Source of the DNA: Candidatus Thorarchaeota archaeon
Lineage (GTDB): Archaea > Asgardarchaeota > Thorarchaeia > Thorarchaeales > Thorarchaeaceae
Direction of reading: 5' to 3'
DNA length: 41,625 nt
Assembly: GCA_030612005.1 (NCBI GenBank)
Contig: JAUWOU010000012.1
Span: 1 to 41,625, forward strand
The notes under the pieces are model-generated. The model was not told where the DNA came from and ran no database searches. It saw nothing but the letters and a program-made list of their open reading frames with translations. Positions 2,997 through 36,040 of this stretch are shown here, piece by piece. Every line of letters starts with the position of its first letter. Position 1 is the first letter of the stretch. The translations under genes and the position numbers were made by a program.

Positions 2997-3395
2997 TTAC
3001 TCGGTTGATTCTTTTCTCCAAAACCATCTGCTGCCAACTAGTTGACCAACAAGAACATTCACAACACTTGTAATCACTAAAATGGCTACTACAATTGGCA
3101 TCAAAGGCATTACATTTGAGCCCCATTCTGATTGAAACGAGTATATCCTGATTTGTGGTGTCAGGAAGTACAAAACGAAGGGCATTATATTATCATACCA
3201 TGGAACTGCATAATCTAGTGCAATAGAGAAGGGATAGGCCACACCAAAGACTCCGATGGCCCCAAGAATGCCGATTAAGGTACCTATCACTATTGAAACC
3301 AGAGGTTGGGTGTACTTGTTTCTAACTATCCTTGAAATGACTATCCCACACAATAAGGACAAGAACATACACGTTACCTCATTTAGAATTACCAC
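2997..3395 (-). CDS. Hypothetical multi-TM membrane protein
   Basis: ORF of 132 aa with several hydrophobic stretches. Confidence 0.5.
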   Translation of the reverse strand: MVILNEVTCMFLSLLCGIVISRIVRNKYTQPLVSIVIGTLIGILGAIGVFGVAYPFSIALDYAVPWYDNIMPFVLYFLTPQIRIYSFQSEWGSNVMPLMPIVVAILVITSVVNVLVGQLVGSRWFWRKESTE

Positions 3396-14944: not shown

Positions 14945-15241
14945 AATTGCGATGGGTAGGGCCGGGTCGTTTGGCGCGACCTGTTATCGGTAATGTCAAT
15001 AGCCGAGGCCAGTAACCTGCATCGAGAATGAACCGGAACGTCGTTGGGTCCAGCTGCAGGACGTTGACATGCGGTCTCTGGAGTCTGTCTCTGACATACC
15101 AGCATTCGTAGGTTTGCTGTGATTGTCATAAACTTCCGAACCGAGTCAGGCCCTGGCGGGAACAGCTCTAAGGAAGAGTGGTGGAGCCCCAGAGGTGGCC
15201 GCATTGAGAATTGCGCTGATCAGCCCTTCGATTACCGACAT
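14945..15241 (+). ncRNA. Signal recognition particle RNA (archaeal 7S RNA)
   Basis: 5' domain TAGGGCCGGGTCGTTTGGCGCGACCTGTTATCGGTAA...AGCCGAGGCC matches the archaeal helix 2-4 signature. Domain IV GAACCGAGTCAGGCCC-TGGC-GGGAACAGCTCTAAGG is at about 15138-15172. Ends approximate. Confidence 0.85.
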
Positions 15242-15323
15242 TCGGAATGTGGGAGCTGTCGCACCTTCTTATCGTTAACCTACAACAATGTTTAAGAGAA
15301 AAATACGGTCAGCACGTTCTCAA

Positions 15324-15466
15324 GCTCAGGTATCCAAGCCTGGTATGGAGCTGGATTGCTATAGGCAGCTATACGCAGTCCTGCAAACATCCAGTGTGCT
15401 TTGCACTCGAGAGTTCAAATGACTTCATGATTTCCATGAGGTTTGAAATTCTCTCCCTGAGCGCCA
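15324..15466 (+). tRNA. tRNA-Ser(GCT) with two BHB introns and encoded CCA
   Basis: Acceptor GCTCAGG/CCTGAGC + G73 + CCA; D-stem TCCA/TGGA; anticodon stem CTGGA/TCCAG, loop TTGCTA-A; variable arm GTGC-TTT-GCAC; T-arm GAGAG-TTCAAA|T-CTCTC. Intron 1 is 15362-15388 (37/38; BHB central helix TTGC/GCAA, bulges TAT and ACA). Intron 2 is 15420-15449 (T-loop; central helix TTCA/TGAA, bulges AAT and ATT). Predicted mature length 86 nt. Confidence 0.92.
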
Positions 15467-15474
15467 TCTTTTCT
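15454..15474 (+). repeat. 21-bp att-like repeat, copy 1 (3' end and trailer of tRNA-Ser)
   Basis: TCCCTGAGCGCCATCTTTTCT, identical to 17092-17112. Confidence 0.85.
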
Positions 15475-15546
15475 CAGATTATGTTTGGATACGTGAAACG
15501 AAAGAAGCAATAATACCAATACTGTAAGTATTCTTGTGGTTGGGTT

Positions 15547-16563
15547 ATGGAAGAGTCACAGGAGAAGAGAGAGTGGATATATAGAAACAGAAAGCTGGTT
15601 GCTGGTTTAGTTATCATATTCATACTATTACAAGTGACCATTACTGTATTGACTATATCATTGAATGATGATGAAATTTCTGATATCAATGTTCCAAGAT
15701 CGACTATTCCAGATAGCTGTGTCTATCCTGCTACCTATGATATTGAATACAATACATCCTATTGGATTAGAGGTAACTATGTTCCACTCATCAATATATC
15801 AGAAGCAGCAGCAGTTGATGCTGCTATGACATTTCTCACTGTGTATCTACCCGAAGAATTGTTGACAGGGCTTCGAGTAGACACAAATAATGAATTTTGG
15901 CCAGGCAGGCCAGAACTCACTACAGACTGTTTCCCTCGGTGGGGAATGACTCTTATTTCTGATTATATGAGAGCAAATGTATGGGTTAATGCCCTAAGTG
16001 GAAAAGTAGTACAATTCAGTCTGGGTTCCTATAATACATCAGTCTTTGTATTTGAAAGCGTTGAAACAGTGGAAGAAACTGAAAGCATTGTTATAGATTT
16101 CCTTCAATCACAAAATTATACATTACTCCCAGATGCAGTCTATGATGGCACTGATCTATCATCATTATCAGAATATGCTTACCACACTCTGACATTTCAT
16201 CAGGTGGTTGATGAGATTCTAATAGGCATTGGAAAAATTACTTTCCATATTGATGCGACTTATGGATTAATCAAATATTTCAGATACAGATGGATTGATC
16301 TTGATGAGATTCCAGTAGATAGAATTCTTCCCGTTGGAGAAATCCACAATATTGTACTGGAAGCAGACAATGATACATTTTTGATTACAATTCGAAATAC
16401 TGAGCTGCGCCTTAACATAATCGGGTTTGATCCAGATTCATCGGATTTTGTAATGCGACTTGTGTATGAAGTAACATTGACGCCGATTTGGGGAGTTGGT
16501 GGAGATTTGTACACAGTTGATGCTATATCAGGTGAGATAGTAAGTATAGATGTATTGTTTTAA
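15547..16563 (+). CDS. Membrane-anchored/secreted hypothetical protein; an in-frame stop precedes a C-terminal TM anchor
   Basis: 338 aa with N-terminal signal/TM (VAGLVIIFILLQVTITVLTIS). After TAA (16561-16563) the same frame continues SSFLGVYEPYFGVAAMLLVAVVLSGAVRVVKRRRLSISME* to 16686. Confidence 0.75.
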   Translation: MEESQEKREWIYRNRKLVAGLVIIFILLQVTITVLTISLNDDEISDINVPRSTIPDSCVYPATYDIEYNTSYWIRGNYVPLINISEAAAVDAAMTFLTVYLPEELLTGLRVDTNNEFWPGRPELTTDCFPRWGMTLISDYMRANVWVNALSGKVVQFSLGSYNTSVFVFESVETVEETESIVIDFLQSQNYTLLPDAVYDGTDLSSLSEYAYHTLTFHQVVDEILIGIGKITFHIDATYGLIKYFRYRWIDLDEIPVDRILPVGEIHNIVLEADNDTFLITIRNTELRLNIIGFDPDSSDFVMRLVYEVTLTPIWGVGGDLYTVDAISGEIVSIDVLF

Positions 16564-16710
16564 TCATCATTTCTGGGAGTTTATGAACCTTATTTTGGAG
16601 TTGCAGCTATGCTTCTGGTGGCAGTGGTGTTGTCGGGAGCTGTTCGAGTTGTAAAAAGAAGACGATTATCAATATCTATGGAGTAACATTTTGCAAAGAT
16701 TTATCATTAA

Positions 16711-17058
16711 GTGACAAAATGTGATGTTGGAGGGTTCGTAACGTTGCAACAAGAAGCGCAGCAGATGTTCGGTATTAGTGGAATTGGAATTCTAGGTATG
16801 GGTCTGGTAATTGTTATCGTGCTGTTAGTTATCGGGTTCAGAGAGAAAGAAGATGTTTTCAGAAAAGAACGATTCATTCGAGCAGCAGGGGTAGTACTCG
16901 GAGTATTGATTATAGTCACAGGATTCACTTGGTATAGCACCGTGGTGGCAGTCGCTACAACACCTATGACCTTTGAGGATGTACTCATCATAACTGGGTT
17001 TTCTTCCATAGGCGGTCTGATTTCAGGCATTTCCTGCTATTTTCCAATTAATAAATAG
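16711..17058 (+). CDS. Small hypothetical membrane protein
   Basis: 115 aa with three or more hydrophobic segments. Confidence 0.5.
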   Translation: MTKCDVGGFVTLQQEAQQMFGISGIGILGMGLVIVIVLLVIGFREKEDVFRKERFIRAAGVVLGVLIIVTGFTWYSTVVAVATTPMTFEDVLIITGFSSIGGLISGISCYFPINK

Positions 17059-17091
17059 AAAGTAAATCTTAGGTTGTAATCTGAAAGTTAT

Positions 17092-17112
17092 TCCCTGAGC
17101 GCCATCTTTTCT
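17092..17112 (+). repeat. 21-bp att-like repeat, copy 2 (detached tRNA-Ser 3' fragment)
   Basis: TCCCTGAGCGCCATCTTTTCT, exact copy of 15454-15474 without the rest of the tRNA. Confidence 0.85.
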
Positions 17113-17265
17113 TCTTCATTGTGTTAGGAGTTGGTGATTGCTAGGGTTAGCTAGTCCGGTCTTTTGTCATATGGGCTATATTATGAAGACCTGAACGTGG
17201 CTGCAGTGGTGTGGTATCTATTGGGAAGAATCGTCAGTAACAAGCCAATCATCACTGGAAGTGAC

Positions 17266-17757
17266 TTAATCTAATTTTAAGGGTGGAATCAACTTAGCTA
17301 GAATTAGAAAAATGAGAATAGAAATTGGAAGTGGAAAATCAGCAGGAGGATTAAGGTGCATTCCGGGCACCGGAAAAATTGTATAGAGCAAGTTACCACC
17401 GTTAAGACTTACAAAAATATAGATTTCGATAAAGACTCCAACTAGTAGTGTCCGAGTAAACGATGTTTGATTATTATAAAATCGGTAAATCATCAAAAAG
17501 AAAAGATACTTGATAAATGAATTTAAAAATATGAGTTGATCGAGTGCAAGAAAGAATCTGAGAGGTTCGTCTTGTTCTATCCTAATGACCCATGTTAGTG
17601 ATTTGATTTCCAAGAAATTGCGAGTGTGGATGAACGCAGGTGTCACCAGTATAACAATGAGCATAACTAATGAGATAATTATTGGACTGACGAATCTCTT
17701 ACTCGATTGATTATTCTCTTCCATAAGACAACTCCTCTTCTTTTCAGCCTCCGCCAT
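17266..17757 (-). CDS. Hypothetical multi-TM membrane protein
   Basis: 163 aa with several hydrophobic helices. Confidence 0.6.
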   Translation of the reverse strand: MAEAEKKRSCLMEENNQSSKRFVSPIIISLVMLIVILVTPAFIHTRNFLEIKSLTWVIRIEQDEPLRFFLALDQLIFLNSFIKYLFFLMIYRFYNNQTSFTRTLLVGVFIEIYIFVSLNGGNLLYTIFPVPGMHLNPPADFPLPISILIFLILAKLIPPLKLD

Positions 17758-17853
17758 AATTTCATCTGAGAGCTCTTGATATGTATCATAAGTGTATTGA
17801 CTAACAAAAAATGAACCACTCGAATACCAGCTTTCAAGCTAATCACAAGCTAA

Positions 17854-17934
17854 CCACTTCTTCTAAGACTGAATCTGATTCATTCTAAGCGGTGTTATCA
17901 AGGAGAAGAAAGAGAAAAGGAGAAGGCGAGAGAT
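17854..17934 (+). repeat. About 80-bp direct repeat, copy 1
   Basis: CCACTTCTTCTAAGACTGAATCTGATTCATTCTAAGCGGTGTTATCAAGGAGAAGAAAGAGAAAAGGAGAAGGCGAGAGAT; near-identical to 19391-19474. Confidence 0.85.
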
Positions 17935-17989
17935 GTAAATTCCAAGAGTTTAAGATAGCTGAGTGTGTTTTCAACATTAAGGGGTTTCA

Positions 17990-19372
17990 GTGTTCGAAAG
18001 AGTAGCGTTGCTAAGAAAATACATTTCACTTCTATCCAAGAAGGAAGTGAAGAGATGGCTTATTCTAATGGCTATAGCGTTTGCTTTCTACTTCCCTTTG
18101 GGGGTAAGTGGTACTTGGTATAGACCTCTGAATGCAACATTCAACATAGCTGGAACCATTGGTTGGCTTTTAGCTACTGGATTTCCTTTTGTGATTGGAG
18201 CATCACTGATTCTCTGTTCAGATCAGACACGAAATAACATTGTAGCGTATACACGAACCCACGAAAAAATGAAGTTCTCATATCTCTTTGTTTCTTTCAC
18301 AGTATTGACCCTAGTAGTTATGGCAGCTGCATCCTTTGCAGGTCTACTAATTGCTGTTAGTGTATCTGGGAATATAGCAATCCTTGGTGTTCTTCCCCAA
18401 TTAGTAGGAATCACATTGTTCCTCTCCTTGCTTCTGACCCCAATCTATGCACTAATTGCCATTGAATTCGATAGTATGAGCAAGTCAATTGTAATAGGAT
18501 TCTTCCTATCCATTGCACTTGTTGCTACAACAGGTCAACCAGGATTTCCCATAAATTACCCCGAGGTTTCGTTCTTTGGACCTGCACATCTACTATCTGC
18601 ATTACTGTTCATCTCTATAGGCGCTTATGGAAATTACAGTGCAGAATTTTTTGTTGGGACTCTCTTTCAACCAATTCATGTGGTTGCTCCAATCCTAGTG
18701 TGGAGTTTCATTTCGATTGTTTGCTATTACGTGGCAAGAAAGGTGTTCTCCAACAACCTATCCCGATGGATTAAGGAGAGGGAAGGTTGGCTCTCAAGTG
18801 GCCAGTCGAAAACAGAACTGGATGATTCAACCCTACCTGCAAATCTTCCAACAATTCGAAAAGAGCTTTATAAAAGACAGAGAAAAGCTGTGGTAGTATC
18901 TGTTGCCATCATTATTCTGATTTTTATCGGGGGATTCGGATATACACAAGTGAAACAGGGGGAATGGACCCAAGTTGTGTATGAGAGTCCATCTGAAGGG
19001 GAAACAGTTGCAATTGGAGACTGGTTGCAGGGATCTTTTACGGGAGTTGAATCTCCATCATCGATAATGTTAGGAGTGACATGTCAGGGTAGAATTCTTG
19101 ACTGGAGTGGTGGGAGTGGATATGTGTATTTTACATTCGAACATAGAGCTATGACCTTAAGTGAATTCCAAGGTCTTAATGAAACTGAGTTCACCCGATT
19201 ATTTGATTCATCAGAAAGCGGAAATCATGGTGTCATTGGGACTTTTAGTAGCGGTCTTGGTGGGCCAATTCATGACTCAGAGTATGTTTGGGTTCTGCGA
19301 TTTAATGATGTCAATGAACGAACTTCTGGATCTGTAGATATTTGGTTTCAGGTGATCCTCAGAGCTTTCTAG
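17990..19372 (+). CDS. Multi-TM membrane protein with a C-terminal extracytoplasmic domain
   Basis: 460 aa; about 7 hydrophobic segments, a further TM (VVVSVAIIILIFIGGFGYTQV), then a soluble beta-rich domain. Confidence 0.75.
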   Translation: MFERVALLRKYISLLSKKEVKRWLILMAIAFAFYFPLGVSGTWYRPLNATFNIAGTIGWLLATGFPFVIGASLILCSDQTRNNIVAYTRTHEKMKFSYLFVSFTVLTLVVMAAASFAGLLIAVSVSGNIAILGVLPQLVGITLFLSLLLTPIYALIAIEFDSMSKSIVIGFFLSIALVATTGQPGFPINYPEVSFFGPAHLLSALLFISIGAYGNYSAEFFVGTLFQPIHVVAPILVWSFISIVCYYVARKVFSNNLSRWIKEREGWLSSGQSKTELDDSTLPANLPTIRKELYKRQRKAVVVSVAIIILIFIGGFGYTQVKQGEWTQVVYESPSEGETVAIGDWLQGSFTGVESPSSIMLGVTCQGRILDWSGGSGYVYFTFEHRAMTLSEFQGLNETEFTRLFDSSESGNHGVIGTFSSGLGGPIHDSEYVWVLRFNDVNERTSGSVDIWFQVILRAF

Positions 19373-19390
19373 CAAATCTCACCCTCAGTG

Positions 19391-19474
19391 CCATTTCTTC
19401 TAAGACTGAAAATCTGATTCATTCTAAGCGGTGTTATGAAGGATAAGAAAGAGAAAAGGAGAAGGCGGAGAGAT
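19391..19474 (+). repeat. About 80-bp direct repeat, copy 2
   Basis: CCATTTCTTCTAAGACTGAAAATCTGATTCATTCTAAGCGGTGTTATGAAGGATAAGAAAGAGAAAAGGAGAAGGCGGAGAGAT. Confidence 0.85.
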
Positions 19475-33736: not shown

Positions 33737-33845
33737 TGGCGGGCTCGGTGGGATTTGAACCCACGGCCAGTCCCCGAAGCAAGAGATGACTCTCCTGTTC
33801 ATCAGGTTAAAAGCCTGCTGCGCTACCTATCTGCGCCACGAGCCC
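33737..33845 (-). tRNA. tRNA-Lys(TTT) with a probable non-canonical intron near the anticodon-stem/variable boundary; encoded CCA
   Basis: Minus strand GGGCTCG-TG-GCGC-AGATAGGTA-GCGC-A-GCAGG-CTTTTAA-CCTG-[~32-nt insertion]-TGGCC-GTGGG-TTCAAAT-CCCAC-CGAGCCC-G-CCA. Confidence 0.87.
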
Positions 33846-34201: not shown

Positions 34202-34368
34202 GCCCCTGTAGTGTAGTCCGGTTAGCATTCAAGACTGTCAATCCAAGCGGTTGACGCTTGAAGCAGACCTCTTGAGACTCCCTCATTAGTGAGGGAGGCG
34301 GAGACAGATCCGGGTTCAAAAGAGATTCATGATTTCCATAATCTCTGAATATCCCGGCGGGGGCGCCA
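34202..34368 (+). tRNA. tRNA-Asp(GTC) with three predicted introns and encoded CCA
   Basis: Acceptor GCCCCTG/CGGGGGC + G + CCA; D-stem GTGT/GCAT; anticodon stem CAAGA/TCTTG, loop CTGTCA|C; T-arm CCGGG-TTCAAA|T-CCCGG. Intron 1 is 34241-34268 (37/38; BHB central CTGT/GCAG). Intron 2 is about 34276-34306 (variable region; hairpin CTCCCTCA-TTAG-TGAGGGAG). Intron 3 is 34321-34351 (T-loop; central TTCA/TGAA, inner GAGATT/AATCTC). Predicted mature length about 77 nt. Confidence 0.9.
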
Positions 34369-34424
34369 TCTTTCTCTTTTCTGGTTACAACGTATGAAAA
34401 CTTTGTCAGAATGAAGTATGAATA

Positions 34425-34856
34425 CTATACAGAATCAATCTCTCTGATCTTTTCTCTTACAATATTAGGAAGGGTTGTTTTCTTTGAATTCTTGTAATCA
34501 TATATCATCAATTTCGATTCTCCGAGAGCAGCTATCCCCTTGGATTTACTTACGATGATATATTCCGTAATGAAATGGGTTGGTTCAATAGAGGTTACAC
34601 GAGCACCTACAGTTACTGTATCAGGGTAAAACAGAGGCTTAATGAATTTACAAGAAGTAGTAGCTAAGATTGGACCAATAGCATCATTCTCCATGGCTTC
34701 AATGAATCCTACTTCCTCAAAGTACTTTATACGAGCGGTTTCAAAATATTTGAAGAATTTAGTGTTGTTTACATGTTTTAAAGAGTCCATGTCTCCCCAA
34801 GCAACGGGAATGTCGACTGTAATGTTGAAATCGTCTAATGATGTCATTGATAACAC
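34425..34856 (-). CDS. 4HBT-family acyl-CoA thioesterase (YbgC/FadM-like)
   Basis: IPVAWGDMDSLKHVNNTKFFKYFETARIKYFEEVGF is a typical hot-dog thioesterase motif. Confidence 0.85.
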   Translation of the reverse strand: MLSMTSLDDFNITVDIPVAWGDMDSLKHVNNTKFFKYFETARIKYFEEVGFIEAMENDAIGPILATTSCKFIKPLFYPDTVTVGARVTSIEPTHFITEYIIVSKSKGIAALGESKLMIYDYKNSKKTTLPNIVREKIREIDSV

Positions 34857-34945
34857 TTCTACAATTTAGAGATGAGTCACCTACATCAGATAAAAATGAT
34901 GTGTCAGGTATGCTACAACTTCAGTACCTATTCATTTTCAGGATT

Positions 34946-34973
34946 CTCCGGGTTCAAATCCCGGCGGGGGCGC
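34946..34973 (+). pseudogene. Detached tRNA-Asp 3' fragment (T-arm + acceptor + CCA) lacking the T-loop intron; att-like or split-tRNA 3' part
   Basis: CCGGGTTCAAATCCCGGCGGGGGCGCCA matches the spliced 3' end of tRNA-Asp. No 5' part is adjacent. The following CTTTTCTCT resembles the tRNA-Asp trailer TCTTTCTCT. Confidence 0.85.
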
Positions 34974-35006
34974 CACTTTTCTCTATACCAGACTCAATTT
35001 CTGCAT

Positions 35007-35867
35007 CTATTCATTTTCAGGTTTCATACTATCCCAGAAGCTCTTTGGAGGGTGCCGTAAGTCCCAGTCAACCCGAGTATCATGTAGAACACGAGAACAA
35101 TATGGATCGCCTTGAGCAATAGTATGTTCCATTGTTAGGACTATACTATCGTGATAATTCCTAAACTTTTCATAATCTCCATAACAGCAAACATAGTATT
35201 TTAGCTCGGTATCGGGCAGGTCTTCTCCTATGGCATTAAAAAAGACACAGGTATCGTTCCGAAAAGCATATTTTCCATCCCCAATCAATGTGTGAACAAT
35301 TTCCCAGTCGGATGGTTCTTCTTTGGGTTCTATCGCCTTTTCATAAATAATTTTCACACTGTCTACTGTCTTTCTTTTTGGATCCCTGTTTTCAAGTGTA
35401 TGGTGAGTTACAAATTTCTTGTACAAATCTATTCCATCTGTTCGATTAAGAGTTTCAGTCAAAACTAGTAGGTTGGAATAATTGTGATGTGACCAAGATC
35501 TGAAGTAGTTCCTATTCACAACCTTGGTTTTCCCTAGTTTATCTTCAGCTGGTAATCGAAGTATCTGTAGAATGTAGTTCAGAACAAGTCTTGTGAGTTC
35601 CAAATGCTCTTTCATATGTGGATTCTCAGATACGAGTTCGTCTAGGTCAGGTGGATTTGCTTTCCTTCGCTCATCCTCCAGTAGACCCTGGTATTTTTCT
35701 ATGAGCTTGTTTATATATTCTGGAAAAATGTCTGGATTTTGTTCTCTGATGAATCCGAGGAAGTAGTTCATTCGTTTCAATCGATTCTGTGCTTCCTCAA
35801 GAGAATTAATCTCGACTGAACGCTCGAGGGTATCTTGTCTATATTTTCCAGTTTTAACAAATTTCAT
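35007..35867 (-). CDS. Hypothetical protein, possibly ATC-hydrolase-like (L-2-amino-thiazoline-4-carboxylic acid hydrolase) C-terminal domain
   Basis: LKYYVCCYGDYEKFRNYHDSIVLTMEHTIAQGDPYCSRVLH resembles the conserved C-terminal GD/C pattern of that family; assignment tentative. Confidence 0.4.
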   Translation of the reverse strand: MKFVKTGKYRQDTLERSVEINSLEEAQNRLKRMNYFLGFIREQNPDIFPEYINKLIEKYQGLLEDERRKANPPDLDELVSENPHMKEHLELTRLVLNYILQILRLPAEDKLGKTKVVNRNYFRSWSHHNYSNLLVLTETLNRTDGIDLYKKFVTHHTLENRDPKRKTVDSVKIIYEKAIEPKEEPSDWEIVHTLIGDGKYAFRNDTCVFFNAIGEDLPDTELKYYVCCYGDYEKFRNYHDSIVLTMEHTIAQGDPYCSRVLHDTRVDWDLRHPPKSFWDSMKPENE

Positions 35868-36040
35868 TCAAAACCACGCTGCCAAGTTTATCTTAGGAAT
35901 GATGTGTGAAATGCAAGACTCTGTAATTAATAAGAGTGTCAAACCACGCAAAAAAATCTGCAAGTTCCGATTAACTCTTACATCGTGAATAAGATAAGGA
36001 GAGAGTATGTATTCGATAGAATGCTCTGGGTTGTGATACT

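Follow-up and report, generated by a model that had tools for sequence, protein, structure and literature searches.

The window analysed here, a 41,625-nt stretch of DNA from a Candidatus Thorarchaeota archaeon, carries a tRNA-Ser and a tRNA-Asp gene whose T-loops are interrupted by short insertions holding the same 14-nt string, TTCATGATTTCCAT. The question raised by this locus is whether the string records the movement of an intron between unlike tRNA genes, as the first-pass annotation had proposed, or a functional core, which it had offered as a second option. The source genome is a 3.6-Mb MAG of 271 contigs, and the genomes compared with it are draft MAGs. Its EF-1A shares 85–96% identity with that of most named Thorarchaeota MAGs among the matches listed.

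Two T-loop introns in unlike tRNA genes

The tRNA-Ser(GCT) gene was recognized by sequence reading at 15324–15466 on the forward strand; it encodes CCA and has two introns. One lies at 37/38 in the anticodon loop (15362–15388, approximate bounds set by eye), lacks an ANUNC loop and is also present in the orthologues L097 and L099–L103. The other, of 30 nt, lies at 59/60 in the T-loop (15420–15449). The tRNA-Asp(GTC) gene (34202–34368, forward strand) also encodes CCA, gave a single genome match and has three introns: one at 37/38 (34241–34268, approximate) that is common to most orthologues, one in the V-region (34277–34307, approximate) with relatives in G008 and in a truncated G004 tRNA-Asp copy, and one of 31 nt at 59/60 in the T-loop (34321–34351). 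Both T-loop introns follow TTCAAA (15414–15419 and 34315–34320) and their flanking helices differ, as annotated. The 14-nt string is exact in both, on the forward strand; its second copy lies at 34326–34339, as reported, and its first, which had been placed at 15423–15436, is at 15424–15437. The 11-mer core ATGATTTCCAT has seven sites in our genome, and only those of Ser and Asp lie in tRNAs. The Rfam tRNA model missed both genes, and ARAGORN returned zero tRNAs in the window. A third intron-bearing tRNA gene, at 33740–33845 on the reverse strand, was the only one in the window that the Rfam model detected.

Both introns form canonical bulge-helix-bulge (BHB) structures, with the Ser intron reading TTCAAA/U-GACUUCAUG-AUUUC-CAUGAGGUU-UGAA-AU/U and the Asp intron TTCAAA/A-GAGAUUcAUG-AUUUC-CAUAAUCUC-UGAA-UA/U (slashes, junctions). 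The T-stem provides the outer helix, and T-loop UUCA paired with intron UGAA the 4-bp central helix, which is flanked at both junctions by 3-nt bulges (AA/U and AU/U in Ser, AA/A and UA/U in Asp). Inside it, after one intron nucleotide, stands a hairpin with a 9-bp stem, interrupted in Asp by one bulged C, and an AUUUC loop; two nucleotides follow the UGAA. RNA fold z-scores were −3.2 for the Ser and −3.6 for the Asp intron. This architecture suggests that the insertions are protein-spliced archaeal BHB introns. The genome encodes two PF01974 splicing-endonuclease proteins (C77 and C8), one with a Tyr/His/Lys pattern, which we take to be that of catalytic endonuclease subunits, and one that by inspection apparently lacks the His. 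This is as expected for a heteromeric endonuclease of broad specificity.

Box C/D guide introns, as in tRNA-Trp, are functional archaeal tRNA introns. Unlike these, the Ser and Asp introns have no C/D or C'/D' boxes on sequence inspection; an apparent CUGA consists of a stem C and the T-loop-pairing UGAA. A C/D-box reading was dropped, since the UGAA is forced by the T-loop. BHB introns are known at the non-canonical sites 53/54, 56/57 and 59/60 of archaeal tRNAs (excerpts of PMC4090602), and Atabeyarchaeia and Freyarchaeia have intron-rich tRNAs (excerpts of PMC11291895). The introns described here share with those of the excerpts their BHB junctions, T-arm sites, occurrence of several per tRNA and Asgard hosts.

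A family of T-arm introns with a conserved loop

A covariance model that included the loop (R1) was used to search 16 genomes of the genus and found T-arm introns in many tRNAs, located by manual parsing at 53/54, 56/57, 57/58, 58/59 and 59/60 with matching BHB helices. R1 is biased to the motif, so that all loop statistics rest on a loop-blind model (R2), built from natural exon flanks with randomised stems and loops, which favours 30-nt introns. R2 matches were obtained in 47 of 47 genomes of the family, at a threshold where matches include intron-free T-arms. The introns read were the best or first matches listed, and the anticodon, judged by eye, was used to name the isoacceptor. Pooling the R2 and R1 sets gave 117 introns in 28 groups (27 isoacceptors and one unassigned) among the matches listed. 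The Ser and Asp introns are members of a family of T-arm introns of about 30 nt that extends across many Thorarchaeota tRNAs. Orthologues of the Ser intron in G013, G005, G006 and G009 are always 30 nt long and read CAUG-ANUNC-CAUG; the intron is absent from G001, G008, G010, G011 and G014. A simple pattern scan for T-loop introns was also tried and discarded as noisy.

The pentaloop ANUNC was found in 25 of the 58 R2 introns outside the R1 set, among the matches listed, as against a mean of 1.4 and a maximum of 7 after shuffling. In these pentaloops, A occupied position 1 in 43/58, U position 3 in 41/58 and C position 5 in 39/58. When one intron was taken per isoacceptor the motif still averaged 9.3 of 20. 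Information reached 0.97, 1.01 and 0.84 bits at loop positions 1, 3 and 5, and was at most 0.35 bits in the stem except at the closing pair (0.66). The checks named in the first-pass annotation included a search of this and related genomes for T-loop introns with the core and a look for compensatory changes. The former revealed the tip family-wide and not in an isolated pair. For the latter, an alignment of 35 arms, among them one Asp copy with no intron, was 93.9% paired as compared with 65.9% after shuffling, and all nine stem pairs change on both sides. The tip has no advantage in nearest-neighbour stability, where AUUUC ranks 357 of 1024. The tip is a strong tendency and not a rule: 43% are exact in the unbiased set, and Leu-CAA and Ser-CGA often deviate.

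R2 also found similar-sized introns in other Asgard archaea, with ANUNC in only 1 of 24 among the matches listed (Fisher p = 5e-4 against the 25/58 of Thorarchaeota). Strong matches also came from 21 of 398 genomes sampled from the phylum to which a Bathyarchaeota MAG belongs, but these T-loop introns, unlike those of Thorarchaeota, are of variable length and have no such tip. The ANUNC excess is restricted to the Thorarchaeota lineage within the sampled genomes. A near-constant 30-nt design with a conserved tip also distinguishes the Thorarchaeota introns from those described in the excerpts of PMC4090602 and PMC11291895.

To our knowledge, sequence constraint on archaeal tRNA introns is generally taken to end with the BHB. 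That one Asgard lineage conserves a tip in the introns of many isoacceptors points to a second recognition element, which can be tested. With the tip kept family-wide and the stems covarying, the functional-core option of the annotation fits the shared core best, with a putative function for the loop. Outside the T-arm, the tip is shared by some Thorarchaeota introns of the D-arm, V-region and anticodon. In the G023 tRNA-Asp gene (L438, reverse strand, 3140–3340), the D-arm intron likewise has an AUUUC tip (CATCATGG-ATTTC-CCATGATG). The site of the Thr-CGT T-arm intron is 53/54 in G007, G011 and G012 (L168, L169 and L170) versus 58/59 in our genome (L032), where one T-stem pair is A-U instead of the G-C of L168–L170.

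The tRNA-Asp locus and tRNA 3' ends as probable insertion sites

Upstream of tRNA-Asp, the flanks of G012 and G013 are 95% identical to that of our genome, and in both relatives the gene lacks the V-region and T-loop introns but has a D-arm intron. No T-loop intron was seen in the other tRNA-Asp genes read within the genus. Identity to G012 and G013 is lost from 34277 onwards and picked up again in a tRNA 3'-end copy free of introns (34947–34980). This copy (T-arm, acceptor and CCA; 34947–34975, forward strand) is identical to the tRNA-Asp 3' end of the relatives and sits 607 nt downstream, beyond an insert (34369–34946) whose sole gene (34425–34856, reverse strand) encodes a 4HBT-type thioesterase; a related gene (79%) lies at the tRNA-Asp locus of G009. 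A second gene (35007–35867) follows the copy, and the common flank resumes near 36005. The stretch with this second gene matches, at 82% identity, a part of the G023 Asp locus situated between two 3'-end copies, and the G023 array includes a 5'-truncated tRNA-Asp copy with a T-loop intron as well as intron-free copies. In G004, a 5'-truncated tRNA-Asp copy carries a V-intron.

Intron gain by an integrating element has been described for Caldiarchaeum tRNA-Thr (PMC3293823; reviewed in PMC8371274), and the published model sets an attP with an intron against an attB without one (PMC3293823; PMC8371274). As in Caldiarchaeum, the intron-bearing gene at the tRNA-Asp locus adjoins an insert, on whose far side lies a displaced tRNA fragment, here free of introns; element-mediated gain is recognized by this arrangement. 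Unlike that model, the cassette inserted here has a single gene, the copied part is the 3' T-arm and acceptor, and no recombinase was found among the genes of the window inserts examined. G013 has a downstream intron-free copy although its gene lacks the T-loop intron; because of this, the remnant alone is no proof of a joint arrival of intron and insert, and the weight first given to it was lowered. The locus is consistent with a recombination route, in which the intron may have arrived with the insert.

Other tRNA genes show similar arrangements. Relative to G005, the region 15474–19435 next to tRNA-Ser is an insertion, and a 20-nt copy of the tRNA-Ser 3' end (CCCTGAGCGCCATCTTTTCT; 17093–17112, forward strand) forms a boundary of inserts. 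Such copies, which start in the T-stem or T-loop or are shorter, lie downstream of Ser, Asp and Thr-CGT in our genome and, within the stretch read, behind 6 of 20 other RF00005 tRNA genes (L008, L009, L013, L016, L022 and L026); three stand in tandem behind Leu-GAG of G012. Among the genes of the window inserts are one for a thioesterase and one for an ATC_hydrolase-like protein; the others gave no significant family. This looks like a cassette system with tRNA 3' ends for attachment sites. We gave the Thr-CGT remnant no weight in the case for intron arrival, since its immediate 3' flank is also present in G012.

Small cassettes with 3'-end copies between them were seen behind the tRNAs of L008, L009, L013, L016, L022, L026 and L032. 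Behind Leu-GAG in G012 (L130, 1558–3058) there are three tandem cassettes, each with one opposite-strand ORF. The SRP RNA region of the window (14948–15267) is inverted between our genome and G013 (L433), with both flanks collinear.

Origin of the shared core and spread of the introns

The explanation that we consider best, and moderately probable as a whole, combines a BHB intron family, a selected tip and entry of introns at the DNA level. T-loop UUCA would pair with UGAA at the intron 3' side to form the BHB, both bulges of which would be cut by the two-subunit endonuclease of the genome. The rest of the intron would be a 9-bp stem of any pairing sequence and a pentaloop kept as A-N-U-N-C by selection, most likely through a putative reader active in processing, either the endonuclease complex or one of its partners. 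Introns would enter single tRNA genes as DNA: T-arms would serve as insertion sites for small gene cassettes carrying tRNA 3'-end copies, and recombination of intron-bearing with intron-free copies could exchange the 3' half of a tRNA.

Because the tip is conserved family-wide while the stem varies, the 14-mer is mostly hairpin tip plus closing pairs. By arithmetic, a 14-mer common to two random 30-mers has a chance of about 1e-6; the loop and stem preferences that run through the family raise this to about 1e-3 per pair, with 2–5 such pairs expected among 4394. Chance or convergence of two unrelated introns could draw on these latter figures, but the preferences themselves show the introns to be related in design, and the family-wide motif makes this reading very improbable. 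A recent direct copy of the Ser intron into tRNA-Asp, by reverse splicing and recombination or by gene conversion, with later divergence of the stem, is doubtful. It would agree with the Asp intron being nearer to the Ser introns of our genome, G013 and G005 (0.72–0.75) than to its Asp counterparts in other genera (0.56–0.66), with its absence from the other tRNA-Asp genes read in the genus, and with Ser/Asp being the sole 14-nt match among intron pairs of our genome. (The top matches, of 15 nt, were discarded as same-tRNA pairs, Leu-CAA, with an offset.) Against it, the stems share little beyond the tip and the forced UGAA, the lengths are 30 and 31 nt, and the overall identity of 23/32 ranks 30 of 6404 unlike-tRNA pairs and is reached by 0.9% of simulated random family pairs. 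Direct copying, though conceivable, is unnecessary to explain the 14-mer, which argues only weakly for such a transfer. Transfer between tRNAs seems better shown by Leu-GAG of G012 and Val-GAC of our genome (G000), two species, with 27/31 identity over the intron and adjoining exon bases; this is the strongest pair outside same-amino-acid pairs, and 0.005% of simulated pairs reach it. With no T-loop intron seen in the other tRNA-Asp genes read in the genus, this supports the annotated idea that T-loop introns spread within the clade, though not from Ser to Asp on the strength of the core, and recombination at attachment sites is a likelier route than the reverse splicing suggested.

Common descent alone, from a single mobile ancestor whose AUUUC tip survives as a functionless relic, would also account for the Leu-GAG/Val-GAC likeness and for the near absence of the motif in other Asgard archaea. 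Large-scale transposition of tRNA introns is known in Thermoproteales (Fujishima 2010, as cited in the excerpts of PMC4090602). The Ser/Asp and Leu-GAG/Val-GAC pairs may resemble that type in placing similar introns in unlike tRNAs; unlike it, the Ser/Asp likeness is largely confined to the tip and forced pairs. Without constraint, a loop is expected to change sooner than the paired stem below it, yet here the stems have changed by compensation and the loop was kept, and the tip recurs outside T-arms, which makes a mere relic distinctly unlikely. The introns might instead be retained because they interrupt attachment sites and so shield tRNA genes from insertion, as proposed in PMC3293823. The 3'-end copies behind tRNA genes, whose similarity begins in the T-stem or T-loop, fit this, but intron-bearing Asp, Ser and Leu genes also adjoin inserts and the conserved tip is left unexplained; we hold protection to be somewhat unlikely, although compatible with the preferred account of a selected tip and DNA-level entry. 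A bolder form of that account is speculative and unlikely as it stands: a dedicated Thorarchaeota reader would recognize ANUNC tips 9 bp from the BHB, splicing or intron fate would depend on this code, and T-arm introns would travel as passengers of single-gene cassettes using tRNA 3' ends.

Near-identical Asp loci with different intron sets and intron-free tRNA ends allow tRNA intron gain to be examined directly in sequence. In G002, four complete or near-complete tRNA-Asp copies lie on different contigs (L425–L428), two of them with downstream 3'-end copies.
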